Source: Candidatus Paraburkholderia kirkii (lineage in GTDB: Bacteria > Pseudomonadota > Gammaproteobacteria > Burkholderiales > Burkholderiaceae). Taken from it: DNA of 64,000 nt. This document shows, piece after piece, positions 1 to 64,000 of the stretch. The first letter of the stretch is position 1. Every line of letters starts with the position of its first letter. The notes under the pieces are model-generated. The model was not told the DNA's origin. It made no database searches and worked only from the letters and a program-made list of their open reading frames with translations. Made by a program: the position numbers and the translations under genes. The DNA lies in contig LFKV01000001.1 in the NCBI GenBank assembly GCA_001189345.1, forward strand, positions 124,001 through 188,000. The letters are read 5' to 3'.

Positions 1-113
1 GCGAAACGCGCTGGCTCGGGCCGCAACTCGGTGAACATACGGATGAAGTACTTCAAACGCTCGGGTATGATGCCGACGATATTGCGCGGCTGCGGGCGGC
101 AAGGGTGATCTGA
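1..113 (+). CDS. CaiB/BaiF-type CoA-transferase, C-terminal end only (partial)
   Basis: The window opens inside a reading frame that ends at the TGA at 111-113. The last ~36 residues include GPQLGEHTDEVL and DDIARLRAARVI, which resemble the usual C-terminal end of class III (CaiB/BaiF, formyl-CoA-transferase-like) CoA-transferases. The catalytic part lies outside the window, so substrate and integrity cannot be judged. It is followed after 50 bases by a decayed ABC transporter operon on the same strand. The family call rests only on this tail. Confidence 0.5.
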   Translation, partial: ETRWLGPQLGEHTDEVLQTLGYDADDIARLRAARVI

Positions 114-164
114 GCCTCGGACCGGAACCGCGCTGACAACGATAAATCCAGGAGACAGACAACA

Positions 165-1202
165 ATGAAACGCAGAACGTTCATCGCGAGCGGCGCCGTG
201 CTCGCGAGTGGTGCTTGGTCGGCCATGCCGCTCGCGTTCGCGCAGAACAAGCCGGAGCAGGCCAAGGTATCGATCGCGGTCGGCGGCAAGAACCTGTTCT
301 ACTACCTGCCGCTCACCATCGCCGAGTGCCGCAACTACTTCAAGGACGAAGGGCTCGAGGTCGAGATCGCCGATTTCGCGGGCGGCGCGAAGGCGTTGCA
401 GGCGGCGGTCGGCGGCGGCGCGGACGTCGTGTCCGGCGCGTTCGAGCACACGCTGCTTCTGCAGGCGAAGAATCAGTACTTCCGCGAGTTCGTGCTGCAG
501 GGCCGGGCGCCGCAGATCGTGCTGGCCGTGTCGAAGAAGTCGATGCCGAACTACAAGTCGGTCGCGGACCTGAAGGGCAGGAAAATCGGCGTGACCGCGC
601 CGGGCTCGTCGACCTCGATCATGGCGAGCTTCGTGCTCGCGCAGACGGGGCTGAAGGCGACCGACGTGTCTTTCATCGGCGTGGGCGCGGGCGCCGGTGC
701 GATCGCCGCGCTGCAGTCCGGCCAGATCGACGCCATCGCCAACCTCGATCCGGTCATGACCAAGCTCGACCGCGCGGGCGACATCCGCATCGTGTCGGAC
801 ACGCGCACGTTCGCGGACACCAGGACGGTGTTCGGCGGCAACATGCCGGCGGGGTGCCTGTACGCATCGTAGAGCTTCATCACGAAGAACCCGAACACGA
901 CCCAGGCGCTCACCAACGCGATGGTGCGCGCGCTCAAATGGCTGCAGACCGCGTCGGGCAAGGACCTGATCGCGACCGTGCCGGAAAGCTATCTGCTGGG
1001 TGACCGCGCGCTCTACCTGGATTCGTGGCAGCATGTGAAGGAGGCGCTGTCGCCGGACGGCCTGATGCCCGCGGACGGTCCCGCGACCTCGCTCAAGACG
1101 CTGCAGGCCTTCGACGAGACCGTGAAGGGCAAGCCGATCGACCTGTCGAAGACCTGGACCAACGACTTCGTGAAGAAGGCGCTCGCCACCGTCAAGGTCT
1201 GA
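165..1202 (+). pseudogene. NMT1/SsuA-type ABC transporter substrate-binding protein, interrupted by an in-frame TAG
   Basis: Residues 1-27 form a Tat/Sec-like signal peptide (two Arg, then a hydrophobic stretch to AFA). The rest resembles periplasmic binding proteins of the nitrate/sulfonate/taurine (NMT1) family, which deliver small organic anions to an ABC importer. Frame 165 stops at TAG 870-872 after LYAS. The same frame then continues without interruption (SFITKNPNTTQALTNAMVRA) to the TGA at 1200-1202, giving an expected 345 residues. The single nonsense codon removes the C-terminal third. A good purine-rich ribosome site (ggaga) precedes the ATG. It is the first gene of a three-gene operon whose other two members are also broken. 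The ligand is not predictable. Confidence 0.8.
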
Positions 1203-1205
1203 TCG

Positions 1206-2036
1206 ATGAGCGCGCCATCGAAACATGCGCTCGCGCTGGAGGACGTCACCTGCACGTTCGCCTCGCGGGAGAATCGGCGTGACCGCTACACCGCCGTCCG
1301 CAACACGAGCCTCGCGATCGCGCCGGGCGAATTCGTGTCGGTGGTCGGGCCGACCGGCTGCGGCAAGTCCACGCTGCTCAACGTGTCGGCGGGATTGCTC
1401 GAGCCGTCGTCGGGCCGGGTGAAGGTTTTCGGCGACGCGCTGAAGGGCATACCGGCGCGCGGGCTACATGTTCCAGGCGGATGGCCTGATGCCGTGGCGC
1501 TCCGCGCTCGACAACGTGACGGCCGGCCTCGCGTTCCGGGGCATCCCGAAGCACGAAGCCGATGCGCACGGCGAGGCGTGGCTCAAGCGCGTGGGCCTCG
1601 GCGGCTTCGGCGATCGCTATCCGCATCAGCTGTCGGGCGGCATGCGAAAGCGGGTCTCGCGATGGCGCAGACGCTCATCCTCGATCCGGACATCATCCTG
1701 ATGGACGAGCCGTTCTCCGCGCCCGACATCCAGACGCGTCAGCTGATGGAAAACGAGCTGCTCGACCTCTGGGCCGCGAAGTGCAAGGCCGTGCTCTTCA
1801 TCACGCACGATCTGGATGAGGCGATCTCGATGTCCGACCGCGTCGTCGTGCTGGCGGCGGGGCCGGGCACGCATCCGATCGGCGAATTCGCGATCGACCT
1901 GCCGCGTCCGCGCGATGTCGCCGAGATCCGCTCGCATCCGCGCTTCGTCGAGCTGCATGCGCAAATCTGAGGCGTGCTGCGAGAAGAAGTGCTCAAGGGC
2001 TACCAGCAGCAGCTGAAGCCCGCCGCCGCCGAATAA
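1206..2036 (+). pseudogene. ABC importer ATPase (SsuB/TauB type), two frameshifts and a nonsense codon
   Basis: This encoded the nucleotide-binding subunit of the same importer. Walker A (GPTGCGKST) is in the first frame. A frameshift near 1455-1462 moves to the frame carrying the Q-loop region (MFQADGLMPWRSAL) and the signature LSGGMRKR. A second frameshift near 1660 returns to the first frame for Walker B (ILMDEPFSAPD) and the H-loop (FITHDLDEA). The frame then meets TGA at 1968-1970, where the family has Trp. Matching coding continues (GVLREEVLKGYQQQ) to the TAA at 2034-2036. ALD of the D-loop reads APD here. Three independent lesions make function very unlikely. Confidence 0.8.
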
Positions 2037-2051: not shown

Positions 2052-2919
2052 ATGTGGAACAAGCTGCGCCCGAATCGCGCGAATCTCATCGTGTGGCAAT
2101 GGCTGTTGCTGCTCGTGTGCTTCGCGCTGTGGTACGTGCTGACGAGCCCGACGCTCCTGCCGCCCTTCTATTTCGACGACGCCAAAAAGGCCGCGTTCTT
2201 CTTCGGCGAGCCGCAGAAGGTGCTCGTGCGCATCTGGGAGTGGTTCACGAGCGGCGAGATCTATCTCCACCTGTGGGTGACGCTGATCGAAACGGTGCTG
2301 GCGTTCGTCATCGGCACCGTGTTCGTGCTTGGGCGTGGGACTATGGTTCGCGCTCGCGCCGACGACGAGCGCGCTCCTCGATCCCTACATCAAGGCCGCC
2401 AACTCGATGCCGCGCGTGATTCTCGCGCCGATCTTCGCGGTCTGGTTCGGGCTCGGCATCTGGTCGAAGGTCGCGCTGGGCGTCACGCTCGTGTTCTTCA
2501 TCGTGTTCTTCAACGTCTATCAGGGCGTGAAGGAAGTGAGCCCGGTCGTGCTCGCCAACGCGCGCATGCTCGGCGCGAACCGCAAGCAACTGCTGCGGCA
2601 CGTCTATCTGCCGAGCGCGACGAGCTGGGTGTTTTCGAGCCTGCACACGTCGGTGGGGCTCGCGTTCGCCGGCTCGGTGGTCGTCGAATATCTCGGCTCG
2701 GCGCGCAGCGTCGGCTATCTGATCCTGCAGGCGGAAGGTACCTTCGACATCAACACCGTGTTCGCCGGCATTCTCGTGCTCACGGCTTTCGCGCTCGTGC
2801 TCGACGGGCTCGTCGCGCTGGTCGAGCGGCGCCTCATGAAGTGGCAGCCCAGGAGCGGGGAAAAACAGAAAAACTGTAGGCCGTCGCGCGAAAAGGCAAT
2901 CGCGCCCGCGTCGCCCTGA
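2052..2919 (+). pseudogene. ABC importer permease (SsuC/TauC type), frameshifted
   Basis: This encoded the membrane permease of the NMT1-type importer. The first ~92 codons (frame of 2052) give an N-terminal transmembrane helix (WQWLLLLVCFALWYVL) and the start of the conserved core (LWVTLIETVLAF). Near 2325-2340 the frame is lost. The remainder, including the EAA-loop region NARMLGANRKQLLRHVYLP and several transmembrane helices, is read in the next frame to 2919. A single indel accounts for this. The gene sits 15 bases after the ATPase and completes the dead operon. The C-terminal tail after MKWQPRSG is low complexity. Confidence 0.75.
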
Positions 2920-2924: not shown

Positions 2925-3879
2925 TCACATCTCGATCACGATCTTTCCCGTCACGCGACGATTCATCATGTCGTCGAGCGCGTAGCGCTTCGTGACAACC
3001 GGACGCAGCCTGCCCGCCTTGATCCAGTCGACCATCGTCGCGAACTCCCGGTCGGCGAGCGCATGCTCGCGCTGCATGTGTCCGCCCCAGAACACGCCGA
3101 CGATGCTCGCGCCTTTCAGAAGCGCGAGATTGAGCGGCAGCTTCGGGATTTTGCCGTTGGCGAAGCCGACGACGAGATAGCGCCCGCGCCAGCCGATGCT
3201 GCGAAATGCCGGTTCCGCATACGCGCCGCCGACCGGATCGAAAATGACGTCCGGACCGTTTCCGTCTGTCAGCGCCTTGATGCGCTCGCGCAGATCCTCT
3301 TGCGCCGTAGTCGATGAGCTCGTCCGCGCCATGCTCGCGGCAGAAGGCGAGCTTCTCCGCGCTCGACGCCGCCGCGATCACGCGCGCGTCCATGATCTTG
3401 CCGATCTGGATCGCCGCGAGCCCGACGCCGCCCGCCGCGCCGAGCATGAGCAGCGTGTCGCCCGCTTTCAGTGCGTCGCGGTCGACGAGCGCATGGTAGG
3501 AGGTGCCGTAAGCAAGCGTGAACGCGGCGGCCTCGGCGAGATCGACGTCGTCGGGCAGCGCGATGCAATCCGCCGCCTTCGCGCGCGCCTGTTCGGCGAA
3601 AGCCCCTTGCGCCGTGTAGGCGGCCACGCGCATCCCGGGCGCGAAGCGCGTGACGCCCTCGCCCACTTCGCGCACGATGCCCGCGAATTCGGCGCCTGGC
3701 GTGAACGGCAGCGGCGGCTTGAACTGGTATTTGTTCTGGATGATGAGCACGTCGGGGAAATTCACCGACGCCGCTTTCACGTCGATGACGAGCTCGCCCG
3801 CTTCCGGATGCAGGTCGGGCAGCGTTTCGATGGAAAGCTTGTCGGGCAGTCCGTGTTCGTTGCAGCGTACGGCGCGCAT
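2925..3879 (-). pseudogene. NADPH:quinone-oxidoreductase-like MDR protein, frameshifted
   Basis: This is a medium-chain dehydrogenase/reductase of the zinc-independent quinone oxidoreductase type ([15 protein letters not shown] at the start, [15 protein letters not shown], and the Rossmann motif LGAAGGVGLAAIQIGK). After DELIDYGA, near 3300, the frame shifts. The C-terminal third (DGNGPDVIFDPVGG to TGKIVIEM) is read in another frame and ends at 2925. One small deletion at the tract reading ggcgcaagaggat explains it. The gene diverges from surE, and its start lies ~100 bases from that gene. The substrate is not predictable. Confidence 0.75.
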
Positions 3880-3967
3880 GTCGTCTCCTTTGAAGTGCCC
3901 TCAGTGTAGGGCAGGGACGGCATCGGAAGCGAGCCTGCCAGTCGTCGTCGCGCCATGTTTCCTCGGT

Positions 3968-3973
3968 TACAAT
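3968..3973 (+). promoter_or_regulatory. Candidate sigma-70 -10 element (TACAAT) for surE
   Basis: A TACAAT hexamer ends six bases before the surE ATG. No convincing -35 hexamer is seen at the expected spacing (3945-3950 reads gtcgtc). If used, transcription would begin at or next to the start codon. Confidence 0.35.
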
Positions 3974-3979
3974 CGTCGG

Positions 3980-4738
3980 ATGCGAATCCTACTCAGTAAC
4001 GACGACGGTTATCTGGCGCGCGGCATCAACGTGCTGCACGATGCCCTGCAGCCGCTCGGCGAAGTGACGGTGATGGCGCCCGAGCAGAACTGTAGCGGCT
4101 CGTCCAACTCGCTTACGCTGTCGCGGCCCCTGAGCGTTCACCAGGCGCCCAACGGCTTCAACTTCGTGAACGGCACGCCGACCGACTCCGTGCACATCTC
4201 GCTCACGGGCATGCTCGACCAGCAGCCGGATCTCGTGGTGTCCGGCATCAACAACGGGCAGAACGTCGGCGAGGACACGCTGTATTCTGGCACGGTCGCC
4301 GCCGCCACCGAAGGCTTCATGTTCGGCATTCCGGCGATCGCCTTCTCGCTCGTCGGCCGCGACTGGCTGTATCTGGAAGACGCGGCGCGGGTGGCCGCCG
4401 AGATCGTCGCGCATTTCCTCGACCATCCGATGCCGGGGCATCCGTTGCTCAACGTAAACATCCCGAGCCTCCCTTACGACCAGCTCGGCGAATGGAAAGT
4501 GACGCGCCTCGGCAAGCGCCATCCTTCGCAGCCGGTCATCCGCCAGACTGATCCGCGCGGCAATCCGATCTACTGGATCGGTCCTTCCGGCGACGCGCTC
4601 GACGCGAGCGAAGGCACCGACTTCCACGCGGTCGCGAACGGCTTCGTGTCGATCACGCCGCTGCAGCTCGATCTGACTCACACGAAGCTCATGGCCGAGA
4701 CGCGCGAATGGGCGCGCGCGGGGAGCCGCCGCACATGA
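3980..4738 (+). CDS. surE: 5'/3'-nucleotidase SurE
   Basis: SurE is a metal-dependent nucleoside monophosphate phosphatase linked to stationary-phase survival. The 252-residue product begins [10 protein letters not shown], with the metal-binding NDD motif. It carries the conserved [19 protein letters not shown] segment and [11 protein letters not shown]. The start at 3980 is chosen because the motif begins there. The open frame upstream has no family resemblance. It overlaps the next gene by four bases (ATGA at 4735-4738), so surE and pcm are translationally coupled as in other beta- and gammaproteobacteria. It is intact. Confidence 0.95.
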
Positions 4739-5177
4739 CCGACGAGCGCGCCAAGCGCTTCCCGCTGGCGCTCGCGGATCTGGTTCGCGAGCCGCGCAAG
4801 CCCGCGAACCGCGCGCACGATTCACGCGGCAAACCCGCCGCCTCCGTTGCGCTCAAGTCCGCGTCCGTGCAGCCGGTGCAAGCGGCAAAGCCGGGGCCGT
4901 CGCGCGCGGCGAACGCGACGATGAAGAATCCCGCGACGACGACGGCGTCCGCGAAGCCGGCCACCTCCGTTTTTCCCGCGCGTTCCGGCGCGAAGCCGGC
5001 GGCGAGCGCCGCGCAAACGCATCACGCGTCTCATGCGCCGCGCACCGGCGCATTGCGCGCCGCAGCGCGGCCCGTCGAGCGCAGCCTGAACGCCGCCGCG
5101 ACCGCGACGCGAAAGGGCGCGCCCAATGTCGCGCTGGCCAGCACGCAGACGCTCACGTCGGAACGGGTGCGCGACGC
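4735..5177 (+). pseudogene. N-terminal Ala/Lys/Pro-rich extension of Pcm, now out of frame with the catalytic domain
   Basis: The frame opening at the ATG overlapping the surE stop encodes [20 protein letters not shown] and then a low-complexity Ala/Lys/Pro/Ser/Thr-rich linker of ~130 residues. Burkholderia Pcm proteins carry such an extension fused directly to the methyltransferase domain through SERVRxRMVERLR. Here the junction reads [13 protein letters not shown] and stops at 5206-5208. A single missing C just before the internal ATG at 5178 separates the extension from the catalytic domain. Confidence 0.7.
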
Positions 5178-5792
5178 ATGGTCGAACGTCTGCGGTCGAA
5201 CAGCGTGACCGATCCGCGCGTGCTCAATGCAATGTCGGTCGTGCCGCGCCACATGTTCGTCGATCCGGGGCTTGCCGCGCAGGCTTACGAAGACGCCGCG
5301 TTGCCGATCGGCCATCATCAGACCATCTCGAAGCCGTCCGTCGTGGCGCGCATGATCGAGCTGGTCGCGGCGGGCCGCGCATTGAGCAAGGTGCTGGAAA
5401 TCGGCACCGGCTGCGGCTATCAGGCAGCGGTGCTGTCGCAGGTCGCAACAGAGGTCTATTCGATCGAGCGTGTGCGTCCGCTGTCCGAGCGGGCGAAGCT
5501 CAATCTTCGGCCGCTGCGCGTGCCGAACATCAGACTGCATTACGGCGACGGCCGTCTCGGCTTGTCCGTGGCCGCGCCGTTCGACGCGATCGTGATCGCG
5601 TGCGCGGGGCTCGACGTGCCGCAGGCGCTGCTCGATCAGCTGGCGGTGGGCGGCAGGCTCGTGGCGCCCGTCGGGTCGCAGGCCGCGCAGTCGCAGGTGC
5701 TGACGCTCGTCACGCGCGTCTCGGCCACGCAGTGGCGGGAAGAGCAGCTCGATCGCGGTTTCTTTGTACTCTTAAAATCCGGAGTGATTTGA
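5178..5792 (+). CDS. pcm: Protein-L-isoaspartate O-methyltransferase catalytic domain
   Basis: This repairs isoaspartyl residues in aged proteins by SAM-dependent methylation. The 204-residue frame starting at ATG 5178 (MVERLRSN) is the size of E. coli Pcm. It has [17 protein letters not shown], the SAM-binding motif [15 protein letters not shown] and the late motif GGRLVAPVG. Upstream coding of a genus-typical extension is one base out of frame. The protein can therefore be made only if ribosomes start at this internal ATG, which has only a weak upstream ggaacgg, or re-initiate there. The catalytic domain has no visible lesion. It lies five bases before nlpD. Functionality is an inference. 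Confidence 0.7.
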
Positions 5793-5797
5793 CACCG

Positions 5798-6703
5798 ATG
5801 AGTATCTTGCGTGCTTTGCGAGAAGAAAGTGCGGACCAATGCCCGAGCGCAGCGCAGCGCGGCGTGTGCGTGCTTGCGTTGTCCGTGCTGGCGGCTTGTT
5901 CGACGCGCATGGACATGGCGCCGGTCGTCGACAGAACGGGCGCGCCCATCGGCACGACGGCGGCGCAGACGCCGGACAACGGTCCGCCGCCACCCGGCTA
6001 TTACCACGTGAAACCGGGCGACACCCTATATCGGATCGCACTCGAAAACGGTCAGAATTATCACGACATCGCGGCGTGGAACAACCTGACCAACCCGAAC
6101 CAGATCGAAGTCGGCCAGCTGATGCGCGTGGCGCCTCCGGGCGCGAACGTCGCGACCGCGCCGATCGCCGGCGGCGGCGTGCAGACGCAGCCGCTCAACG
6201 GCGCGAACGCCTACGCGGCGCCGCAGCCGGGCGCGACGGCGCAGCCGCCGTACTACGGTCCGAGCTCGGGCATGGGCGCAACGCCGGGTGCGTCGGGTGT
6301 GCCGGGCGCGGACACGAGCGCGGCGGCGCCCACCGGCCAGCCGGCGTTCATCTGGCCGGCGCGCGGACCGATTCTCGGCACCTTCGACGAAGCGAGGAAC
6401 AAGGGTTTGAACATCGACGGCGCGGCGGGAGATGCGGTCAATGCGTCGGCCGATGGACGAGTGGTTTATTCTGGAAATGGACTACGCGGCTACGGCAATC
6501 TCATTATCATCAAGCACGACGCAACTTTTCTCACAGCGTATGCACACAACCGCGCTTTGATGGTAAAAGAGGGAGACGCGGTGACTAAAGGGCAGAAGAT
6601 CGCTGAGATGGGGAACAGCGATTCGGACCGCGTGATGTTGCATTTCGAAGTTCGCCGGCAGGGAAAACCTGTTGACCCACTGAAGTATTTGCCGTCGCAA
6701 TAA
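5798..6703 (+). CDS. nlpD: Murein hydrolase activator lipoprotein NlpD (LysM + M23)
   Basis: NlpD activates periplasmic amidases for septal peptidoglycan splitting. The 301-residue product has a lipoprotein signal (hydrophobic VCVLALSVLAAC, with Cys near residue 29). A LysM domain follows (YHVKPGDTLYRIALENGQ, ~residues 68-112), then a Pro/Ala/Gly-rich linker. The C-terminal M23-like domain runs from WPARGPILGTFDEARNKGLN to LHFEVRRQGKPVDP. The canonical HxGxD zinc ligands are replaced (N-I-D-G), as in degenerate NlpD-type M23 domains that activate rather than cut. It follows pcm directly and lies 12 bases before rpoS, the usual arrangement in which an rpoS promoter lies within nlpD. Confidence 0.92.
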   Translation: MSILRALREESADQCPSAAQRGVCVLALSVLAACSTRMDMAPVVDRTGAPIGTTAAQTPDNGPPPPGYYHVKPGDTLYRIALENGQNYHDIAAWNNLTNPNQIEVGQLMRVAPPGANVATAPIAGGGVQTQPLNGANAYAAPQPGATAQPPYYGPSSGMGATPGASGVPGADTSAAAPTGQPAFIWPARGPILGTFDEARNKGLNIDGAAGDAVNASADGRVVYSGNGLRGYGNLIIIKHDATFLTAYAHNRALMVKEGDAVTKGQKIAEMGNSDSDRVMLHFEVRRQGKPVDPLKYLPSQ

Positions 6704-6715
6704 AGCAAAACCATC

Positions 6716-7813
6716 ATGCCAAAAACGAAGCGCCGCCTGCCGCAAGCCGAGACTGAGACGATCAGCCGACCTTTGCAAGTGTCGGTGGAAGACGGTGCTT
6801 CGACCCATGATGACGAGATCAAGAACGTCGATGTCGAGATCGATGCTGGCGATGACGCCGGCGGTCGCGGCAAGGACGGCGAAGAAGCGAGCGAAGGCGC
6901 AAACGATTCCGCGCCCGACGCCGACGATTTCCGCTCGCTTCTGCAGGCCGAGCTTACAGCCGACACCATTCAGCATTACCTGAACCGCATCAGCGTGAAG
7001 CCGCTGCTCACTGTCGAGGAAGAGCAGCGCTATTCGCGGCTCGCCAAGGCGGGCGAATTCGAGGCGCGGCAGGTCATGATCGAGCGCAATCTGCGGCTCG
7101 TCGTGAGCATTGCGAAGGGATATCTGAACCGTGGCGTGCCGCTGCTCGATCTGATCGAGGAAGGCAACCTCGGCCTGATGCATGCCATCGAGAAATTCGA
7201 TCCGACGCGCGGCTTTCGTTTTTCGACCTACGCCACCTGGTGGATCCGCCAGAGCATCGAACGCGCGATCATGAATCAGGCGCGCACGGTGCGTCTGCCG
7301 GTGCACGTGATCCGCGAACTCAATCAGGTGTTACGCGCCAAGCGCCATCTGGAAAAAAAATCCGCCAATTCGAACGACGCCGTCGCGCCCGAGCGCCGCG
7401 ATGCGAGCATCGACGACATCGCGTATCTCACCGGCAAGACGCCCGAGGAAGTCACCGACATCCTCGCGCTCAACGAACACACTGCTTCGCTCGACGCGCC
7501 GCTCGACCTCGATCCCGGCAGCAGCCTGCTCGATCTGCTTTCCGACGACCAGAGCCAGTCGCCCGATGCCGAAGTGCAGCACCGCGAGCTCGAATCGCTC
7601 ACGCGGCTGTGGCTGTCGCGTCTGTCCGACAAGCACCGGCATGTGATCGAGCGGCGCTTCGGGCTGAACCATATCGAGCCCGCGACGCTCGAAGAGCTCG
7701 CCGACGAAATGGGCCTCACGCGCGAGCGCGTGCGCCAGATCCAGCAGGAGGCGCTCGTGCGGCTCAAGCGCTTTTTCGCTTCCAACGGCGTTTGCAAGGA
7801 CGCCGTGCTTTAA
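6716..7813 (+). CDS. rpoS: RNA polymerase sigma factor RpoS
   Basis: RpoS is the stationary-phase and general-stress sigma factor. It has 365 residues with an acidic Asp/Glu-rich N-terminus (residues ~20-65). Region 1.2 ([18 protein letters not shown]) follows, then region 2 with [18 protein letters not shown] and the -10 recognition and melting segment [19 protein letters not shown]. Region 3 and region 4.2 helix-turn-helix ([20 protein letters not shown]) complete it. All regions are intact in one frame. This is notable because RpoS is dispensable and many dispensable genes here are broken. It lies 12 bases after nlpD. Confidence 0.95.
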
Positions 7814-7864
7814 CGCTCCCATGCATGAAGCGGCGCCCGCGAGGGCGTTCCGTTCCAGGATTCA

Positions 7865-8641
7865 ATGACACCGATTCTCGTTTTCGACATCGAAACGATC
7901 CCCGATGTCGACGGCATTCGCCGTCTCGAAGATTTGCCCGACGATCTCTCCGATCGCGAAGTCGCCGAACATGCGTTCGAAGCGCGCCGCGAGCGCGTCG
8001 GCAACGATTTTCTGCCGCATCACCTGCAGCGCGTGGCCGCGATCTCCTGCGTGTTTCGCGACAACAACGGTTTTCGCGTGCGCTCGCTCGGCACGCCGGC
8101 CGACGGCGAGGCGGCGCTCATCCAGTCGTTCTATCGCGTGATCGAGAAATACACGCCGCAGCTCGTTTCGTGGAACGGCGGCGGCTTCGATCTGCTCGTG
8201 CTCCACTACCGCGCGCTGGTGCACGGCATCGCGGCGCCGCGCTACTGGGATCTCGGCCAGGAAGATCGCGAGTTCAAGTTCAACAATTACATCAGCCGCT
8301 ATCACATGCGGCACATCGACCTGATGGACGTCCTCGCGATGTACCAGGCGCGTGCCAACGCGCCGCTCGACGCGCTCGCGAAGCTGTGCGGCTTTCCCGG
8401 CAAGCTCGGCATGGACGGCGGGCGAGTCTGGGACGCGTTCTGCGACGGCCACATCGACGAAATCCGCAACTATTGCGAGACCGACGTCGTCAACACGTAT
8501 CTGATGTACTGCCGTTTCCAGATGATGCGCGGCGGGCTCACGCCCGACGAGTACGCCGACGAGATTGGTTTCGTGAAGAACGCGCTCGCGCAGGAGGCGT
8601 CGCCGCATTGGGCGGAGTACCTGGCGGCGTTCGCCAAATGA
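7865..8641 (+). CDS. 3'-5' exonuclease, DEDDy PolB-like family
   Basis: This is a 258-residue stand-alone exonuclease of the family often annotated as predicted 3'-5' exonuclease related to the PolB proofreading domain. Exo I is FDIETIP at residues 6-12, Exo II is SWNGGGFDLLVL near residue 105, and Exo III is YCETDVVNTY near residue 207. The four acidic residues and the Tyr of the DEDDy active site are present. Start ATG 7865 follows ccagga at a suitable distance. Its cellular role is not established. It lies between rpoS and rlmD on the same strand, is intact, and could act on DNA or RNA ends. Confidence 0.85.
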   Translation: MTPILVFDIETIPDVDGIRRLEDLPDDLSDREVAEHAFEARRERVGNDFLPHHLQRVAAISCVFRDNNGFRVRSLGTPADGEAALIQSFYRVIEKYTPQLVSWNGGGFDLLVLHYRALVHGIAAPRYWDLGQEDREFKFNNYISRYHMRHIDLMDVLAMYQARANAPLDALAKLCGFPGKLGMDGGRVWDAFCDGHIDEIRNYCETDVVNTYLMYCRFQMMRGGLTPDEYADEIGFVKNALAQEASPHWAEYLAAFAK

Positions 8642-8699
8642 TGGCGTGACGTTCGTCTACAATCTCGTCTTTGCCATTCGTTAGCCAGGAAGTACGCAG

Positions 8700-10115: not shown

Positions 10116-10141
10116 CGCGCAGTTTCGTTTTCTGCAGACGC

Positions 10142-10171
10142 AAAAAAACCGGCTCGAAAGCCGGTTTTTTT
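10142..10171. terminator. Bidirectional rho-independent terminator between rlmD and the BAX-inhibitor gene
   Basis: A7, then the hairpin ACCGGCT-CGAA-AGCCGGT, then T7. The A and T tracts make it work on both strands for two convergent genes. Confidence 0.9.
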
Positions 10172-10194
10172 GTTTTCGTCGCGCCAAACCCGGG

Positions 10195-53858: not shown

Positions 53859-54595
53859 ATAATCCAGATCTTCGCCGAATACTGGCGCCCGTTCCTGTAC
53901 TCCGACCGCATGCGCGCGTCGGGCCTCGTCGTCACCTTGTGGCTGCTCGCGGCCTCGATCGCGCTGGGCTTCTGCGCGGCGGTGCCGCTCGCGTGCGCGC
54001 GCGTCTCGAGAAACCGCTGGCTTTCGACGCCCGTGCGCATCTACACCTACTTGTTCCGCGACACGCCGCTCTACCTGCAGCTGCTGTTGCTCTACACGGG
54101 CATGTACAGCCTCGAATTCGTGCGCATGCAGTCGCTGCTGGAGGCGTTCTTTCGCAGCGGTTTCAACTGCGCGATCCTGGCCTTCGCGCTGAACACCTGC
54201 GCCTACACGACGGAAATCTTCGCCGGCGCGATCCGCGCGATTCCCCACGGCGAGGTGGAAGCCGCGCGCCTACGGCATGAGCACGTTTACGATGTACCGC
54301 CGCGTGATCCTGCCGTCCGCGCTGCGCCGCGCCTTGCCTTTGGCCTTTGTACAGCAACGAAGTGATCCTGATGCTGCACGCGACGACCGTCGCCTTCACC
54401 GCGACCGTGCCGGACATCCTGAAGGTCGCGCGCGATGCGAACTCCGCGACCTATCAGCCGTTCGAATCGTTCGGCATCGCGGCGCTCCTGTATCTGGCGA
54501 TCTCGTTCGCGCTCGTCGCGGCGTTCCGGCGCGCGGAGCGGCACTGGCTCGCGTACCTGCGGCCCGCGGGCGCGGCGCGTCCGGGCCGCGCGTGA
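53859..54595 (+). pseudogene. hisM: Basic-amino-acid ABC transporter permease HisM, start lost and frameshifted
   Basis: The expected start region reads ATA ATC CAG ATC (53859), so the normal ATG seems changed to ATA. The coding then gives IFAEYWRPFLYSDRMRASGL, YLFRDTPLYLQLLLLYTGMY and AYTTEIFAGAIRAIPHGEVE. A frameshift near 54265 moves YGMSTFTMYRRVILPSALRR to another frame. A second near 54345 moves SNEVILMLHATTVAFTATVP to a third frame, ending LAYLRPAGAARPGRA at 54595. Three lesions. Confidence 0.82.
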
Positions 54596-54616: not shown

Positions 54617-55444
54617 ATGGATCAGATCCTGTCATCACCCGAGGAGAAAGCGTTGGAGCCAACCGCCAAGAACGTCGCGACCAAGCTCGTCGCAGAGGAC
54701 ATTCACAAACGCTACGGCGACAACGAAGTGCTGAAGGGCGTCTCCCTCGCGGCGAAGGCCGGCGACGTGATCAGCATCATCGGCGCGAGCGGCTCCGGCA
54801 AGAGCACGTTTCTGCGCTGCATCAACTTTCTCGAGCGGCCCAACGCGGGGCAGATCATCGTCGACGGCGAAACCGTGCGGACCAAGACCGACAAGTCCGG
54901 CAATCTCGAAGTCGCGGATCACAAGCAGCTGCAGCGCGTGCGCACCAAGCTCGCGATGGTGTTCCAGCACTTCAATCTGTGGTCGCACATGACGGCCATC
55001 GAGAACGTGATGGAAGCGCCCATCCACGTGCTCGGCATCCCGAAGAAGGAAGCGGAGGACCGCGCGCGCGAGTACCTGGAGAAGGTGGGGCTGCCGCCGC
55101 GCGTGGAGAAGCAGTATCCGTCGCATCTATCGGGCGGTCAGCAGCAGCGCGTGGCCATCGCGCGCGCCCTCGCGATGCATCCCGACGTTATGCTCTTCGA
55201 CGAACCGACTTCCGCGCTCGACCCCGAACTCGTCGGCGAAGTGCTGAAGGTGATGCAGCGTCTCGCGGAAGAAGGTCGCACGATGATCGTCGTCACGCAC
55301 GAGATGGGCTTCGCGCGCAACGTGTCGAATCACGTGATGTTCCTGCATCAGGGACGCACGGAAGAAGAGGGCGCGCCTTCGGAGGTGCTCACGGCGCCGA
55401 AGAGCGAGCGCCTGCGCCAGTTCCTGTCGGGAAGCCTGAAATAA
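54617..55444 (+). CDS. hisP: Basic-amino-acid ABC transporter ATPase HisP
   Basis: The nucleotide-binding subunit for histidine/arginine import. It has 275 residues: Walker [11 protein letters not shown]-loop VFQHFNLW, signature HLSGGQQQR, Walker [13 protein letters not shown] and H-loop VVTHEMG. A short N-terminal extension precedes [27 protein letters not shown] hexamer at 54602-54607 could be a -10 box. It is intact, but one permease partner is dead and the other has lost its native start. Confidence 0.9.
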
Positions 55445-55445: not shown

Positions 55446-56463
55446 GTGGCGGGTGCGCCGCTGCAGGTGGCGATTGTCGCGCTGCCGCCGGTCTCGATGA
55501 GCGACATCGGGCCGATCGTTGACAGTCTTTCGCTCGCCAACGAGATCGACGGGCATCGCCTCTAGAGTGGCGCATCTGCTCGTGGGACGGCCGTCCCGTG
55601 CCGCTCTTGGGCGGCGCGCAGCTTCCCGCCGACTGCGCGTTCAACGACGCCGTGCGCTGCGACTGGCTCATCGTCGTTTCCGAGCGCTATCAGCAATTCG
55701 CCGACTATCGCCCCTTTCTCGCGAGTCTCGCGCGTGTGGCGCCGCGCACGCCGCTCGTCTCGGGCATCCATCACGGCGTGTGGTGGCTCGCGATGGCCGG
55801 GCAGCTCTCGCAGTACCGCGTCGCGGTGAACTGGGAGACATATCAGCAGTTCACCGAGCAATTCGAGCGTGCGATCGTCAGCCAGCAAATCTTCGAGATC
55901 GACCGCGACCGCGCCACGTGTTCCGGCGGGCAGGCGGGCATCGATTTCATGCTCGCGATGATCCGACCATGGGCAGGATCTTGCGGAACGCATCGCGGAT
56001 TCGCTCGGCATCGGCGTCCTGCGCGCGGGCACGGAGCGCCAGCGCATCCCGTTCGTCACCGCGCCCGGCGAGCGGCATCCGCGCCTGAACGACGCGCTCC
56101 AGCTGATGGAGGCGAACATCGAAGACCCGCTCGCCACCGACGAGATCGCGAGTCTCGTCGGCATGTCGCGACGGCAGCTGGAGCGGCTGTTTCGCCAGTA
56201 CCTCGGCGCGATGCCGTCGAAGTATTACCTCAATCTGCGGCTCACCAAGGCGCGCACGCAATTGCAGCGCACGAGCAAGTCGGTCGTGCAGATCAGCCTC
56301 GCGTGCGGGGTTTTTTTTGTCGGCGGCGCATTTTTCGAATGCGTATCGCGACCGCTTCGGCGTGACGCCGCGCGAGGAGCGCCGCAACTGGATCGAAAAG
56401 CAGCGGGGCGCCATCGACGAGCCGCGCGGCGGCGCGCTGATCGAGCCGCCGGATGCACGCTGA
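55446..56463 (+). pseudogene. GlxA/ArgR-like AraC-family regulator of arginine uptake and catabolism, frameshifted
   Basis: GTG 55446 opens AGAPLQVAIVALPPVSMSDI, a DJ-1/PfpI-like sensory domain. Frame is lost near 55563, then continues WLIVVSERYQQFADYRPFLA, RTPLVSGIHHGVWWLAMAGQ and FSGGQAGIDFMLAMI-like sequence (actual CSGGQAGIDFMLAMI). A second shift near 55965 leads to the AraC DNA-binding domain (NIEDPLATDEIASLVGMSRR, YLGAMPSKYYLNLRLTKART). A third near 56305 puts NAYRDRFGVTPREERRNW in another frame. In pseudomonads and burkholderias such a gene follows the arginine/histidine transporter and activates ast genes. Confidence 0.72.
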
Positions 56464-56587: not shown

Positions 56588-57817
56588 ATGACCGACATCA
56601 ATGTGAATCGCGGTACGTTCGACGAGGTAATGGTTCCGGTGTTCGCGCCGGCCAATTTCGTGCCTGACCGGGGCCGCGGCTCGCGCGTGTGGGACACCGA
56701 AGGGCGGGACTATGTCGATTTCGCCGGCGGCATCGCGGTGACGGCCCTGGGTCACGGACATCCCGAATTGTTGAAGGTGCTGCACGAGCAGGGCGACAAG
56801 CTGTGGCACATCGGCAACGGCTACACCAACGCGCCGGTGTTGCGCCTCGCGAAACGCCTGACGGACCTGACCTTCGCCGACCGCGCGTTCTTCGCGAATT
56901 CGGGCGCGGAGGCGAACGAAGCGGCGCTGAAGCTCGCGCGCCGGTATGCGATCGACAATCACGGTCCGGACAAGATCGAGATCATCTCGTTTACGCAGTC
57001 GTTCCACGGCCGCACGTTCTTCACGGTGAGCGTCGGCGGCCAGCCGAAGTACGCCGAAGGCTTCGGGCCGCAGCCGGAAGGCATCCGTCATCTGCCGTAC
57101 AACGACCTGCCGAAGGCGCTGGAGGCGATCGGCCCGAAGACCTGCGCGGTGATCGTCGAGCCGGTGCAGGGCGAGGGCGGCGTGCTGCCCGCCGATCCAG
57201 CGTTCCTGAAAGGCCTGCGCGAAGCGTGCGACAGGCACGGCGCGCTGCTCATCTTCGACGAGGTGCAGACGGGCGTCGGCCGCACGGGCACGTTCTACGC
57301 CTACATGCAGTACGGCGTGACGCCCGACATCCTGACGAGCGCGAAGGCGCTCGGCAACGGCTTCCCGATCGGCGCGATGCTCACGACCAACGAGATCGCC
57401 GCGCACTTCAAGGTCGGCGTTCACGGCACGACTTACGGCGGCAATTCGCTGGGCGCGTCGATCGCAGAAAAGGTCGTCGAGCTCATCAGCGACCCGAAGC
57501 TGCTCGAAGGCGTGAACGAACGCAGCAACGCGATCAAGGCGCATCTCGAGCGCATCAACGAGCGTTCCGGCCTGTTCAAGGAGATTCGCGGCCGCGGCCT
57601 GCTGATCGGCGTGGAGCTGAACGACGCCTACAAGGACCGCGCGAAGGACGTGCTGAACGCGGCGGCGGCCAACGGCGTCATCATGCTGATCGCGGGGCCG
57701 AACGTGCTGCGCTTCGCGCCGTCGCTCATCATGCCGATGGCCGATCTCGACGAAGGCTTCGCGCGCATTGGGAAGTCGATCGAGCAGGTCGTCGGCGCCA
57801 GCGCCGTCGCGCGTTGA
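56588..57817 (+). CDS. astC: Succinylornithine/acetylornithine transaminase AstC
   Basis: A PLP-dependent class III aminotransferase, third step of the arginine succinyltransferase pathway; it can also act as acetylornithine transaminase. It has 409 residues: [55 protein letters not shown], and the PLP Lys in [17 protein letters not shown] 56588 is preferred to an upstream in-frame ATG. The gene is intact although both following astA genes are broken. It may be kept for arginine or lysine biosynthesis. Confidence 0.88.
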
Positions 57818-57840: not shown

Positions 57841-58588
57841 ATGCGCTTCGTTCGTCCCGCAAGACTCTCCGACCTCGACGAGCTGCAACGGATGGCGCGC
57901 GCGGCGCAGCCCGTGCTGCACTGCTGCCGCACGACCGGCGCGCGCTGGAAACCTGCGTCGCGCTTTCGGAAGACTCGTTTCGCGCCGAAGTGGAATTTTC
58001 CGGCGAGGAGTTCTATCTCTTCGTGCTCGAGGATGCGGAGACGGGCCGGTTGCTCGGCACGTCGAGCATCGTCGCGTCGGCGGGTTATTCCGAGCCGTTC
58101 TATGCGTTCTGCAACGACGCGCTGATTCACGCGTCGCGCGAACTCAAGGTGAACCGCAAGATTCACGCGCTCACGATGTTGCACGAGCTGACGGCCAAGA
58201 GCCGCCTGACGGGCTTCTATGTCGATCCGTCCCTGCGCACCGGCGATGGCGAAGCGGCGGCGCATCTGCTGTCGCGCGCATGATCTACATCGCCGCGAAC
58301 CGCAAGCGCTTCTCGAGCGAGGTCTTTTCGCTGATGCTCGGCGTCACCGACGATTCCGGCGCGTCGCCGTTCTGGGAAGCCGTCGGCCGCAAGTTCTTCG
58401 GCCGCGATTTCGAGCAAGTGGAGCTCGAATCGGGCGGCCGTAGCCGCACGTTCATCGCCGAGGTCATGCCGAGCTATCCGCTCTACGTGCCGCTGCTGCC
58501 CGGCGAGGCGCAGCGCGTGCTCGGCGTCCAGGAGAAGGACACGGTGCGCTGTGTGCCGCTGCATCAAGCTTCGGGAGAATTGCAATGA
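57841..58588 (+). pseudogene. astA: Arginine N-succinyltransferase alpha subunit, frameshifted and shortened
   Basis: Begins MRFVRPARLSDLDELQRMAR. A deletion near 57919 shifts frame to RALETCVALSEDSFRAEVEF, EPFYAFCNDALIHASRELKV and TGFYVDPSLRTGDGEAAAHL. Another deletion near 58276 shifts to MIYIAANRKRFSSEVFSLML and SPFWEAVGRKFFGRDFEQVE. About 90 residues before the C-terminal KDTVRCVPLHQ are missing. Overlaps the next gene by four bases (ATGA). First enzyme of the AST pathway; dead. Confidence 0.78.
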
Positions 58589-59057
58589 TCGTCGTGCGCT
58601 GCACGCAGCCGGGAGACGTCGACGTGCTCGTCGCGCTCGCCCAGGAAACGGGTCCGGGGCTCACCACGTTCAAGCCGGATCGCGCGCCGCACGCTCAGCG
58701 GCGACGCCGAGCCCTTCGAGGCGAGCTATTTCTTCGTGATGGAAGACACCGCAACCGGCGACATCGCGGGCGTGTGCGGCATCGAAACGCAGGTGGGTCT
58801 CGAGCAGCCGTTCTACAACTATCGCGTGTCGACGGTCGTGCATGCGAGCAAGGACATGGGCGTGTGGACGCGCATGTCGCTGCTCAACATCTCGCACGAT
58901 CTGACGGGCTATGCGGAAGTGTGCTCGCTGTTTCTGAGCCCGCGCTATCGCACGGCGGGCGTGGGCGGGCTGCTGTCGCGCTCGCGCTTCATGTTCATCC
59001 GCAGTTCACGGATCGCTTTCCGCAGCGCCTGTGCGCGGAATTGCGCGGCCACTTCGA
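58585..59057 (+). pseudogene. astA: Arginine N-succinyltransferase beta subunit, frameshifted and 3'-truncated
   Basis: ATG 58585: [20 protein letters not shown], then [15 protein letters not shown] frameshift near 58685 leads to [40 protein letters not shown] and [20 protein letters not shown]. Another indel lies near 59005 ([18 protein letters not shown] in a different frame). Similarity ends at about 59057, where sequence of a different gene follows. The C-terminal half is gone. Confidence 0.75.
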
Positions 59058-59185
59058 CCTACCGCTATCGCGTGTCGCACGACGAAGAGCGCATCGTGTT
59101 CCCGAATCCGAAGGTAAAGCCCGGCCTGCGCACCAGCCTGATGGTCGTCGATACGACCGACGCAACGCTCGGATCGCTCGGCTGA
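59058..59185 (+). pseudogene. astE: 3' remnant resembling succinylglutamate desuccinylase AstE
   Basis: The frame reads [20 protein letters not shown] and [11 protein letters not shown] before TGA 59183-59185. The ERIVFPNP-x-V-x-PGLR pattern resembles the C-terminal end of AstE, the last enzyme of the AST pathway. Directly after astA-beta one would expect astD and astB. Both are absent, so a deletion from within astA-beta to the end of astE would explain the join. The identification rests on one motif. Confidence 0.45.
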
Positions 59186-59465: not shown

Positions 59466-60281
59466 TTGACGAATTCGCATAGGATCAGCCGCAAGCTCGC
59501 CGCATTCGCGGTGCTGGGCGCCACTGTTGCCGCGGGCATCGCCACGCTGAACGCGCGGGCGGCCGACACCACGAAGGAACTGCGCTTCGGCGTCGAGGCG
59601 TCTTACGCGCCGTTCGAATCGAAGTCGCCGAGCGGCGAGCTGATGGGCTTCGACATCGACATCGGCAACGCGGTGTGCGCGAAGCTGAAAGTAAAGTGCG
59701 TGTGGGTCGAGAACTCGTTCGACGGGCTGATTCCCGCCCTGCAGGCGCGCAAGTTCGACGGCATCAACTCGGACATGACGATCACCGACAAGCGCAAGCT
59801 CGCCATCAATTTCACCGATCCGATCTATACGATCCCCAATCAGCTGATCGCAAAGAAGGGCAGCACGGTCCAGCCGACCGTCGACGGGCTGAAGGGCAAG
59901 CGCGTGGGCGTGCTGCAGAGCTCGATCCAGGAGACGTACACGAAGGCGAAGTGGGCGCCCACGGGCATCGACGTCGAGTCGTATCAGGCGCAGGACCAGA
60001 TCTACGCGGATCTGGCGTCGGGCCGTCTGGATGCGGCGTTTCAGGATGCCGAGGTGGCGTCGAAGGGGTTTCTGAAGCAGCCGCAAGGCGCGGGTTTCGC
60101 GTTCGCGGGTCCGGCCGTCACGGACGACAAGCTGCTCGGCTCCGGCGTGGGCTTCGGCGTGCGCAAGAACGACAAGGCGCTCAAGGAAGCGCTCAATCGC
60201 GCGCTGAAGGAGTTGAAGGACGACAGGACCATCGATCGCTTCGCCGCGAAGTACTTCGACGTGAAAGTGGTGCTGAAATAA
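59466..60281 (+). CDS. hisJ: Basic-amino-acid ABC transporter substrate-binding protein (HisJ/ArgT type)
   Basis: The periplasmic receptor for histidine/lysine/arginine/ornithine. It has 271 residues from TTG 59466, which follows a strong aaggag. GTG 59433 is a less likely alternative. The signal peptide is KLAAFAVLGATVAAGIATLN-ARA. Mature protein: LRFGVEASYAPFESKSPSGE, MGFDIDIGNAVCAKLK and DGLIPALQARKFDGINSDMT, typical of family 3 solute-binding proteins. It is intact. Its cognate permease HisM is dead, so uptake through this system should be lost unless another permease substitutes. Confidence 0.88.
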   Translation: MTNSHRISRKLAAFAVLGATVAAGIATLNARAADTTKELRFGVEASYAPFESKSPSGELMGFDIDIGNAVCAKLKVKCVWVENSFDGLIPALQARKFDGINSDMTITDKRKLAINFTDPIYTIPNQLIAKKGSTVQPTVDGLKGKRVGVLQSSIQETYTKAKWAPTGIDVESYQAQDQIYADLASGRLDAAFQDAEVASKGFLKQPQGAGFAFAGPAVTDDKLLGSGVGFGVRKNDKALKEALNRALKELKDDRTIDRFAAKYFDVKVVLK

Positions 60282-60721: not shown

Positions 60722-62239
60722 TCAGGTATCGGCCGCGGTACTCCCGACCCTTCCCGTCGCGCCGAACACGATGAAACTCATTGCCGCGAGCGTCCACACC
60801 GCGGCGACGCCGTAGAGCAGGACCCAGCCGAAGCCATGCACAAGCGCATCGCGCGCCACGGCATGATCGAGCGCGACGGCGCGCCCGGCGGCAATCGCCT
60901 CGCCGAGCGCATGGCGTTGCGCCGCATCGCGCCCGCCCGCAGGCGTGCGCATCAGAAACGCCTCGATGCCTGCCCCGAGAATGAACCCCATCAGCGCGAT
61001 GTTGATGGCGAGGGCGATCATTCTCGCGCTCATGTCGATGCCCGGGGCCATGCTCGCCCGCGCGCTCGACACGGCGCCCGTCGTCGTGTTCGTGACGGTC
61101 GTGTTGGTGAGGCCGAGCCCGATTCCCGCGACGATGCAGCCGGGCAGCATCGTCAGCCAGCTGGCGTGTTCGGCGCCGCTGCCCGCGTGCATCAGAAAGA
61201 AGCCCAGCCCGATGGTGAACAGTCCGCCCAGTATGACATAGCCGGGGCGATAGCGATGCGCGAGCCGCTTCGCCACGGGCGGCACGATCAGTGCCGGCAG
61301 CGTATAGGCGAGCAGCGCGAGACCCGCGCCGACCTCGCCGTAGCCGAGCGCCTCGTGGAAGTACGCGGGCAGATAGATCATGAACGGCCAGAAGCTGAAG
61401 TTCATCGCCGCCGATCCGATCAGCGCGCCCGAAAAATTGCGGATGCGGAATACGGAAAAGTCGAACATCGGATGGGGGGTTCAGGTTCTCGGCGATGACG
61501 AACGCGCCCAGGCAGAGCGCGCTCGCGGCGACGATGCCCAGCGCCGCCGGGCTGGCAAAGCCCAGATCCGGGCCTTGCGCGATGTAGAAGGCCAGGCCGA
61601 ACACGGCAAGCGACAAGGTCACGACGCCCATGCATCGAGTCTCCGCGCGTGCGGATCGCGCGATTCGCCGACGCCCGGGATCGCGAACGCGAGTGTCGCC
61701 AGCGCGAGCGGTGCATGCACGAGAAAGACCCATTGCCAGCCGGCGAGCGCGGCCGTCGCGCCGCCGATGATCGGGCCGAATCCGAGCCCGATGCCGAAAA
61801 TGATCCCCCACGCGGCGAACGCCCTGACGCGCGCATGTCCCTGCCGAAACTGATGCGACAGCACGGCCACCTGGCAGATCAGCATCGCCCCGCCGCTCGT
61901 GCCTTGCAGGGCACGGCCGGCAATCAGCACGGGCATGGTCGAAGCCAGTCCGCACAGCAGCGAGGTGATGCCGAACAGGGCGATGCTGATCACGAACACG
62001 CGCCTGTGGCCGAAGCGGTCGGCGAACGTGCCCGTCGCCATCAGGACGGTGGTGCAGGCGATCGTATAGGCGTTCATGACCCACTGGATGTCCCTGAAGC
62101 CGCCGTGCAATACTTGTGCGAGCGCCGGCAGGATGGCGGGGACGCTGGATATCTCGAGACCGAACATCAGGGACGACAGACAGGCGCCCAGCAGGGCAAG
62201 CGTGTTCTTGCGCGGATGAGGGAAGGGCATGTCGGCCAA
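60722..62239 (-). pseudogene. DHA2-type (EmrB/QacA) drug-efflux MFS transporter, two frameshifts
   Basis: The start is good: LALLGACLSSLMFGLEISSV, the motif A-like TGTFADRFGHRRVFVISIAL and RALQGTSGGAMLICQVAVLS. The frame ends at 61619 after DAWAS. A middle piece (VVTLSLAVFGLAFYIAQGPD, FVIAENLNPPSD) is in another frame. A shift in a run of G/C near 61477 leads to a third piece (MFDFSVFRIRNFSGALIGSA and onward) ending at 60722. About 14 helices originally. With the neighbouring LysR and HlyD pseudogenes it formed an efflux locus. Confidence 0.8.
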
Positions 62240-62342
62240 GCGCGAAACGAGGAAGAGCGCTTAATATATCGGGAATGAGAGTCCCGATTGGCGAGCTGGA
62301 TTCGGATGAATGTGTCCTTTATGGAACCAATGAGGCAGCGCA

Positions 62343-63247
62343 ATGAATGAGCGACTGAACGGCGTGGAGACGTTCGTGCAGGTCGTGGAGGCGGGCAGCT
62401 TCGCGCTGGCCGCCGACCGGCGGAACCTGACGCGTTCCGCCGTCGGAAAGATCATTGCGCGCCTGGAGACGCGCCTGGGCGTGCGCCTGATTCATCGCAC
62501 GACGCGCAGCCAGAGCCTCACGGAGGACGGTGTCGCGTACTACGAGCGCTGCGTGCGCGCGCTGACCGAACTCGACGCGCCGAGGTCGAGCTCGACGGCG
62601 GTCGGCGCACGCCGCGCGGACGCCTGCGGGTGAGTCTGCCGCTCGCCGTCGGCTAGTTGTGCGCCGCGCCCGTGCTGATGGATCTGGTGCAGGCGCATCC
62701 GCAATTGCAGATCGACATGTCGTTTACTGACCGGATGGTCGATCTCGTCGACGAGGGCTTCGATCTCGCCGTTCGCATCGGCGAACGGCGAGACAGCGCG
62801 AGCCTCGCGGCGCGGCGCCTCGGCGTGCAGCACACCTGCATCTGCGCGTCGCCGGCGTATCTGGTGCGTCATGGCGCGCCGGCTTCGCTCGACGACCTGA
62901 ACGGCCATGCCGGCATCGCGTATGCGTGCGCGGGCGTGCCCCTGCCGTGGGACCTGCGCGACGACGAAGGACAGGTGAAGCGCGTCGAGATTCGCGCGCG
63001 GGTGAGCCTGGACGACGTGCAGGCAATCACTTCGGCCGCCGTCGCGGGCTTCGGGCTCGCGCGCATTCCGTCATGGCTGCTCGCGCGCTATCTGAGCACC
63101 GGCGAGCTCGTGCTGGTCCGCGGCCAGTGCAGTCTGCCGCCGCAGGAGATCAACGTCGTCTGGCCACAGACGCGCTACATGCCCTCGAAAACGCGTTGCG
63201 CGATCGATGCGCTCATCGCCGGAATTCCCGCGTCGATCGATGTCTGA
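62343..63247 (+). pseudogene. LysR-type regulator of the efflux locus, frameshift and nonsense codon
   Basis: Winged-helix start MNERLNGVETFVQVVEAGSF, RSAVGKIIARLETRLGVRL. A frameshift near 62578 (after LTELDA) moves GRLRVSLPLAVG to another frame. That frame meets TAG at 62654-62656, where relatives have Gln, then continues LCAAPVLMDLVQAHPQLQID to the end at 63247. The effector domain is otherwise complete. Divergent from the MFS pseudogene and ends close to the HlyD gene. Confidence 0.8.
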
Positions 63248-63257
63248 ACCCGCGCGG

Positions 63258-64000
63258 CTACATCGACGGCGCGATCACCACGGTCGCCGTCGTGCCCGCG
63301 CTCAGCAGCACGCCGTCCGGCACCTGGTCGATATGCACCCGCACCGGCACGCGCTGCGCGAGCCGCACCCAGTTGAACGTCGGGTTCACGTCCGCGAGCA
63401 GCTCGCGACTTTGCGGATTGTCGCGGTCATAGATGCCGCGCGAAATGCTCTTCACGTGCCCCTTCAGCTCGCCGCCGCTCATCAGCCGGATCAACGCCTT
63501 GTCGCCCACGCGCACGTGCGGCAGCTTGGTTTCCTCGAAGTAGCCGTACACCCAGAACGAGTGACTGTCGACGATCGCGAGCTTGGCCGCGCCCGCCGTC
63601 GCGTAGTCGCCGCGAAACACGTTCAGGTTGGTCACGTAGCCGTCCACCGGCGAGTACACCTTCGTGCGCTCGAGGTTGAGCTTCGCGGCATCGAGTGCCG
63701 CCTGCGCCTGCTGCAGCTACGCATCTGCGGTCGATGCGGTCTGCATCGCGTTCTCGCGCGCTTCCTTCGACACGACGAGACTGTCCATGTCGGCGCGCCG
63801 CGCGGCGTCCGCGCGACGCATGCGCAGCTCGGCCGCGCGCGCCGCGACGTTTGCCTGCGCCTGCTCGATCGCGATCCGATAGTGTGACGGATCGATTTCC
63901 ATCAGCAGGTCGCCCTTCTTCACGAGCTGATTGTCGCGCACCGGCAACTGCACGACCGCGCCCGAGACGTCCGGCGCCACGTTGACGACGTCCGTGTGCA
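63258..64000 (-). pseudogene. HlyD/AaeA-type membrane-fusion protein, nonsense codon; 5' end outside the window
   Basis: The periplasmic adaptor of a tripartite efflux pump. The visible frame runs from DVVNVAPDVSGAVVQLPVRD and KGDLLMEIDPSHYRIAIEQA (lipoyl/hairpin part) to a TAG at plus-strand 63717-63719, where Gln is expected. It then continues in the same frame with LERTKVYSPVDGYVTNLNVF, SFWVYGYFEETKLPHVRVGD and VPDGVLLSAGTTATVVI. It ends at 63258. Apart from the single stop it is well preserved. The N-terminal membrane anchor lies beyond the window edge. Confidence 0.8.

Follow-up and report, generated by a model that had tools for sequence, protein, structure and literature searches.

What decides which genes survive in a genome that is coming apart? 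The question is raised by a stretch of 64,000 nucleotides (the window; contig 1, 124001-188000, of a genome we call G000) in which the ast operon has decayed around a single untouched gene, astC; argD, the gene redundant with it, has become a pseudogene on another contig of the same genome. G000 comprises 3,914,712 bases in 48 contigs (97.3% complete, 0.62% contaminated), and the named ispG genes closest to its own are those of Caballeronia. In our reading, which we hold with considerable confidence, the window comes from a Caballeronia lineage in early, active, host-linked genome reduction, most likely a leaf-nodule-type plant symbiont, where survival of a gene would be set by what its module needs once redundancy has been counted. 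The erosion itself is of a known kind; the reciprocal retention of astC and argD is the new and testable part.

Genes were scored by aligning those of a free-living reference, G011, to the window and taking as integrity the fraction of reference codons in phase inside a single stop-free stretch (intact, >=0.90; broken, <0.80), with G001 and G012 as controls. By this measure astC is the sole intact gene of the ast operon, astA and astE persisting as remains and astD and astB being absent. The gene argD (38-39% identical to astC; NF002985 above cut-off) is broken in G000 on contig 48 (C48:79980-82283), where about 106 bp are missing and the six adjoining genes are intact; a copy of an IS630-family insertion sequence (IS) lies ~200 bp upstream of its start, and our conjecture is that this copy triggered the loss. 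We compared the pair across eight other small genomes (G034, G038, G048, G066, G032, G060, G042, G061). In G034 argD is broken and astC intact (0.99), and in G038 argD was not found and astC is intact (0.98); five others (G048, G066, G032, G060, G042) have argD intact and astC broken (0.41-0.72), and G061 has argD and no astC. The larger G015 (6.2 Mb), added to the count on account of its broken astC (0.73), has a full-length argD, judged at the protein level only. Exactly one of the two genes is kept in 9/9 small eroding Caballeronia genomes, G000 included, and in G015, while among the 57 genomes in which either gene was matched, the remaining 47 have both argD and a stop-free astC-like gene. 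With fixed margins, and ignoring relatedness, the chance of a perfect split is 1/84 for nine genomes and 1/120 for ten, in a count made without the 60%-complete G003 and without G063 (5.1 Mb, 3 contigs), which keeps both genes and was not counted as eroding.

In a tree of ispG and hisS (from which G060 was left out, its fetched contig stopping inside hfq), G034 adjoins the argD-keeper G032 (support 1.000), G038 adjoins the argD-keeper G066 (0.858), and G000 is sister to the free-living, 7.0-Mb G001 (0.941), away from the other small genomes. Because the three losers sit apart, the three losses of argD are independent. Around the intact astC of all three, the AstA, B, D and E genes are broken or absent as far as the fetched contigs extend. 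We suggest that astC has stayed clean in a dead operon because argD is a pseudogene, and that AstC has probably taken over arginine (and perhaps diaminopimelate) biosynthesis in G000. According to passages of PMC3590144, AstC and ArgD are interchangeable in E. coli, where the deletion of argD is complemented by AstC. Likewise, in Serratia symbiotica argD has become a pseudogene, and the proposed stand-in is astC (two of three culturable strains) or SerC; in contrast to the Caballeronia set, those parts of PMC8275996 that we saw make no mention of lineages choosing reciprocally between the two. The literature searched, most subscription journals lying outside its scope, contained no account of astC and argD being lost reciprocally in Caballeronia or Burkholderia.

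A mechanism can be proposed in which IS630 and other IS elements, having multiplied in a burst, would together with many small indels inactivate genes no longer under selection, while selection would go on protecting whatever a module requires once redundancy is taken into account; genes of the translation, envelope and nucleotide core are clean, and catabolic, motility-linked and transport genes are decaying. Where two genes do one job, the first loss would make the other indispensable, so that with the loss of argD, which encodes the usual biosynthetic acylornithine aminotransferase, AstC would take over. We think it likely that this toggle between catabolic AstC and anabolic ArgD is a redundancy rule in the genus, by which each eroding lineage loses exactly one, so that on at least three separate occasions, two of them where the closest sampled relative kept ArgD, the catabolic enzyme came to serve alone in biosynthesis; the same reading has HflKC, the regulator of FtsH that is universal otherwise, missing from the G000 lineage alone. 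That leaf symbionts undergo genome erosion is known, and what decides gene loss has usually been argued genome by genome. Within one genus, several young erosions that arose independently, with free-living sisters to serve as controls, supply repeated outcomes for the same redundant pair, and 'selection spares what is needed' becomes a prediction to be scored on further gene pairs and put to the test in the laboratory. If true, the toggle would allow redundancy to predict which genes survive as a genome decays.

The extent of damage is given by the same score. The 51 window genes with a free-living reference divide into 28 intact, 20 broken, 2 absent (astD, astB) and one ambiguous (a phosphoribosyltransferase gene, integrity 0.90), and 22 flank genes into 14 intact, 7 broken and one ambiguous, dnaX, which has an open frame of 846 codons; together 27 of 73 are broken and 2 absent, and all 73 reach >=0.90 in at least one control. 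A longest-open-frame measure was dropped in favour of the in-phase measure because, at the G+C content of G000, long wrong-frame open reading frames (ORFs) made broken genes seem whole. Models of bamB, hflX and pcm were set by hand, the automatic ones being wrong there; excluded before counting were automatic models g18, g21, g22, g34, g35, g38-g40, the cut gene g48 and, in the flanks, g0-g3, g13 and g121 (unreliable) and g129 (unmatched in G000's own stretches). An initial annotation of the window had put the lesioned genes at roughly 25, a fair figure once four more are added: g48 (cut at the inversion described below), the broken transposase gene of an IS21 element, and one fragment each of EmrB-like and LysR-like genes. 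The nine genes it had listed as clean (ndk, ispG, hisS, bamB, der, hfq, purA, waaC, hisZ) score 0.98-1.00, and the single-base change that it suspected in the FAH gene is a frameshift close to the 5' end (integrity 0.94). Counted as broken at 0.58 against a 354-aa reference model, pcm has a methyltransferase (catalytic) domain in an open 204-aa frame scoring over the family cut-off, and its product may still be functional despite the broken N-terminal part.

Lesions private to G000 are unevenly spread. Within the window, 7 fall in intact genes (26.5 kb) and 51 in broken ones (without g109 and g112). Over window and flanks, 86 are distributed among 69 genes (again without g109 and g112, which are junk alignments), leaving 35 genes untouched where 22.7 are expected by length, a number reached in 1 of 200,000 simulations. 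The noise floor of the method, by the same rule and on the same 70 genes, is 15 lesions private to G001 (in 8 genes) versus 102 for G000.

Ratios of non-synonymous to synonymous substitution rates (dN/dS) on G000's own branch are 0.159 (0.133-0.191) for 24 broken genes and 0.120 (0.094-0.155) for 44 others, with absent genes, g109, g112 and caiB left out; on the G001 branch the same sets give 0.108 and 0.093. From so small a rise it follows that the broken genes have been unconstrained for roughly 6% of the branch. The A+T shift of old symbionts was not seen (G+C is 0.650 in 144 kb versus 0.639-0.655 in the references), as expected at an early stage. Because dN/dS is barely raised and G+C is not lowered, the pseudogenes are young, and they are many, with independent lesions. 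The genome is small as well, at 3.91 Mb and 97.3% completeness versus 7.0 Mb for its sister; same-genus genomes in the initial relative search were mostly 5.5-10.1 Mb, with one (G003) of 2.4 Mb at 60% completeness. IS elements have proliferated: G000 has 114 IS630 matches and at least 74 rve transposases, the latter versus 1 in G001, 2 in G012 and 27 in G011. No IS630 match reaches E<=1e-20 in G001, G012, G034 or G038, although the relatives' fragmented short-read assemblies may conceal copies. Two IS630 copies, 99.8% identical over 1111 nt and in opposite orientation, flank the kup-purA block, which was probably inverted via recombination between them. A third copy lies in the right flank at window-scale position 102526.

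Host association is suggested by genes outside the window. Two open, divergent sugar-phosphate-cyclase genes lie on contig 43 (75 kb) besides the aroB-like genes; both score under the aroB cut-off, and their best match in PDB is 4p53 ('Cyclase'), which we take to be an EEVS. The aroB-like matches fall at C41:24275-24613 and C5:10773-11111, one in a shorter 189-aa open frame and one of 375 aa. Extra cyclase matches occur in 3/8 of the other small genomes (G034, G042, G066), and each of three free-living references has one match. EEVS cyclitol genes mark cyclitol-making leaf-nodule symbionts, according to the sections of PMC8599487 consulted, and because of its two open cyclitol-cyclase-like genes G000 is likely to lead such a life. 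The same sections describe Candidatus Burkholderia (Caballeronia) kirkii, a Psychotria leaf-nodule symbiont, as massively eroded on becoming obligate and as carrying EEVS genes on an accessory replicon; G000 resembles it in its ~3.9 Mb, broken genes, IS expansion and two EEVS-like cyclases. The contig-43 pair is reminiscent of the cyclitol plasmid of that symbiont. Caballeronia sp. BR6202001591004, a leaf endophyte of Empogona congesta (PMC10405798, in part) that we take to be G061, shares a small genome (3.8 Mb) and broken genes with G000; unlike G000 it stands on another branch of the tree, keeps argD, has no astC, and keeps hflK and hflC. The description of a symbiont-like reductive genome with abundant IS elements, given by the initial annotation, agrees with the genome size, the IS expansion and the young pseudogenes.

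Two other accounts of the damage were considered. The first, which we regard as very improbable, puts most lesions down to mistakes of sequencing or assembly in a noisy long-read consensus. Private frame-breaking indels in window genes number 46 (listed without caiB, g48, g109 and g112); 20 are of 1 bp and 10 of 2 bp, and whole IS copies inside contigs suggest long reads; but just one of the 20 1-bp indels falls within a run of at least three identical bases, 16 indels span 4-37 bp, 35 of 69 genes carry no lesion, and entire genes as well as the 106-bp piece of argD are gone. Among the IS630 matches, 67 are identical over all 343 residues, 18 more are full length at 99% and 2 more near full length, giving 87/114 stop-free, near-full-length copies (the remaining 27 are partial, diverged or stop-bearing, some at contig ends), whereas the host-gene lesion rate of 1.25 per kb predicts ~28% of 1.03-kb copies to be clean; this internal control is possibly flattered by joint polishing of repeats. 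Because of the 4-37 bp indels, the rare homopolymer context and the unbroken IS630 copies, the lesions are genuine ongoing decay rather than base-calling noise, as had been proposed, and their uneven spread agrees. The same proposal had essentiality separating clean from damaged genes, dispensable ones decaying randomly, which as the whole explanation is unlikely. Its direction is right, since all nine named genes are clean and the genes of window and flanks that we assume to be essential from the E. coli Keio set (rho, dnaX, ispG, hisS, der) are unbroken in 5/5 cases versus 39/68 others; of the nine, presumably ispG, hisS and der alone belong to that set. However, the difference has a Fisher p of 0.07, many dispensable genes are intact (rpoS, surE, rlmD, rlmN, kup, hflX), astC is clean within its dead operon, and hflK and hflC are broken in G000 alone. 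Both of these carry several indels, as had been noted, and yet they are not generally dispensable: hflC is full length in 56/58 genomes searched, the exceptions being G000 and the 60%-complete G003 (no match), and hflK and hflC are both kept in all eight other small genomes (0.85-0.99), so that the loss is peculiar to the G000 lineage. The FtsH modulator yccA is intact in G000. What a module needs once redundancy is counted makes the better rule, with exceptions in single lineages, hflKC among them. Essentiality labels were also sought in the Burkholderia transposon papers PMC5729917 and PMC4993015, for six gene names each, and none appear in the main texts, the part of each paper covered.

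That the astC/argD reciprocity is coincidence or shared ancestry seems distinctly improbable: the sample is small, its split odds take no account of relatedness, and G063 and G015 were assigned as described, but the argD losers stand apart in the tree, broken remnants of the lost partner reveal the direction in G000 and G034, and the rest of the ast operon is broken or absent around astC in all three, as far as their fetched contigs extend. Possible, if doubtful, is that AstC was kept for diaminopimelate/lysine synthesis, a task common to both enzymes, and not for arginine; a dual role of the E. coli enzyme appears in the reference list of PMC3590144 (consulted in part), and argH was not found in G038, where AstC may serve another task, whereas G000 and G034 both have open frames for argC and argH. 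As far as sampled, the remainder of the arginine pathway persists, argH being matched in 11/12 genomes searched (two partial) and argC in 12/12. Against our reading as a whole weigh, besides the Keio p value, the solitary hflKC loss and the missing argH of G038, several further points. All argC matches fall below the family's curated cut-off; the tree consists of two genes only; G003 (2.4 Mb), dropped as 60% complete, gives no match at E<=1e-50 to argD or to astC; Serratia symbiotica SCt, where argD and astC are both pseudogenes (PMC4122931, in the portions seen), shows that the rule does not hold universally; and five of the eight other small genomes are without extra copies of the cyclase genes on which host association rests. 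Retention in small relatives also fails to predict the state in G000: of 18 genes compared, 12 are kept wherever scorable and 10 of these are intact in G000 (exceptions hflK, hflC), as are 5/6 of the variable ones, and conservation in small relatives, tried as a stand-in for the essentiality label, was rejected for want of discrimination.

The window is a mosaic relative to the three references. One region of the largest reference contig runs collinear with positions 1-26370, and the block that follows it there corresponds to 27566-32209, inverted; 33951-45150 match a smaller contig, and from 53100 onward the sequence corresponds to another part of the largest. Genes of the decayed cluster at 1-2875 score 0.99-1.00 in the controls. 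Individual features are listed in Table 1.

Table 1. Features of the window, with their condition and integrity scores
Feature	Position	Strand	Condition and remarks
CaiB-like CoA-transferase gene end	1-113	+	broken; 0.53 for whole gene including flank
SsuABC-like ABC transporter, substrate-binding	165-1202	+	broken, 0.68
SsuABC-like ABC transporter, ATPase	1206-2028	+	broken, 0.67
SsuABC-like ABC transporter, permease	2052-2875	+	broken, 0.64
Quinone-oxidoreductase-like gene	2925-3879	-	broken, 0.59; name presumed
Core block: surE, pcm, nlpD-position gene, rpoS, exonuclease-like, rlmD, yccA (-), ndk, rlmN, rodZ, ispG, hisS, yfgM, bamB, der, hfq, hflX	3956-22506	+	nearly all intact (0.95-1.00 except pcm); pcm and nlpD names rest partly on gene order
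pcm	4735-5792	+	N-terminal part broken, 0.58
hflK	22610-23920	+	broken, 0.59; TIGR01933 on reference protein
hflC	23932-24807	+	broken, 0.79; TIGR01932 on reference protein
hisZ	25179-26330	+	intact, 1.00; NF008935
IS630-family element, copy 1	26372-27490	+	NF033545; left of inverted block
kup - phosphoribosyltransferase - purA block	27566-32209	-	inverted versus three references; purA, kup intact
IS630-family element, copy 2	32207-33325	-	NF033545; right of inverted block, opposite orientation
Segment with orthologues on a different, smaller reference contig than those of neighbouring segments	33951-45150
Zinc metallopeptidase	34168-35027		broken
waaC	35221-36273		intact
PilZ/YcgR-like	36453-37362		broken
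FAD oxidoreductase	38211-39548		broken
LysR	41545-42246		broken
FAH-like	42392-43236		one 5' frameshift
SDR	43233-43982		broken
MFS transporter	44089-45150		broken
Large serine recombinase	48269-49609	-	open frame; NF041201 under cut-off; Resolvase and Recombinase domains
IS21-family element	50446-52421	+	transposase part broken, IstB helper open; has near relatives
HisQ-like permease beside ast operon	53146-53835	+	intact, 1.00
Second amino-acid ABC permease	53859-54591	+	broken, 0.55; named by position
Amino-acid ABC ATPase	54617-55444	+	intact, 1.00; named by position
GbdR-like regulator	55459-56456	+	broken, 0.40
astC (succinyl/acetylornithine aminotransferase)	56588-57817	+	intact, 1.00; TIGR03246 above cut-off
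astA (two subunits) and astE remains	57841-59180	+	astD, astB absent
Lysine/arginine/ornithine (HisJ/ArgT-like) binding protein	59466-60280	+	intact, 1.00
EmrB-like MFS fragment	60722-61468		decayed
LysR-like fragment	about 62337-63247		decayed
AaeA-like adaptor	63263-64000, runs on into flank		decayed, 0.53

Two minor observations complete the description. In the small genome G042, purA scores just 0.58 and is possibly broken, possibly misaligned. In the window itself, the large serine recombinase gene sits in a segment to which nothing in the reference stretches corresponds, and which may hold the remains of a mobile element.

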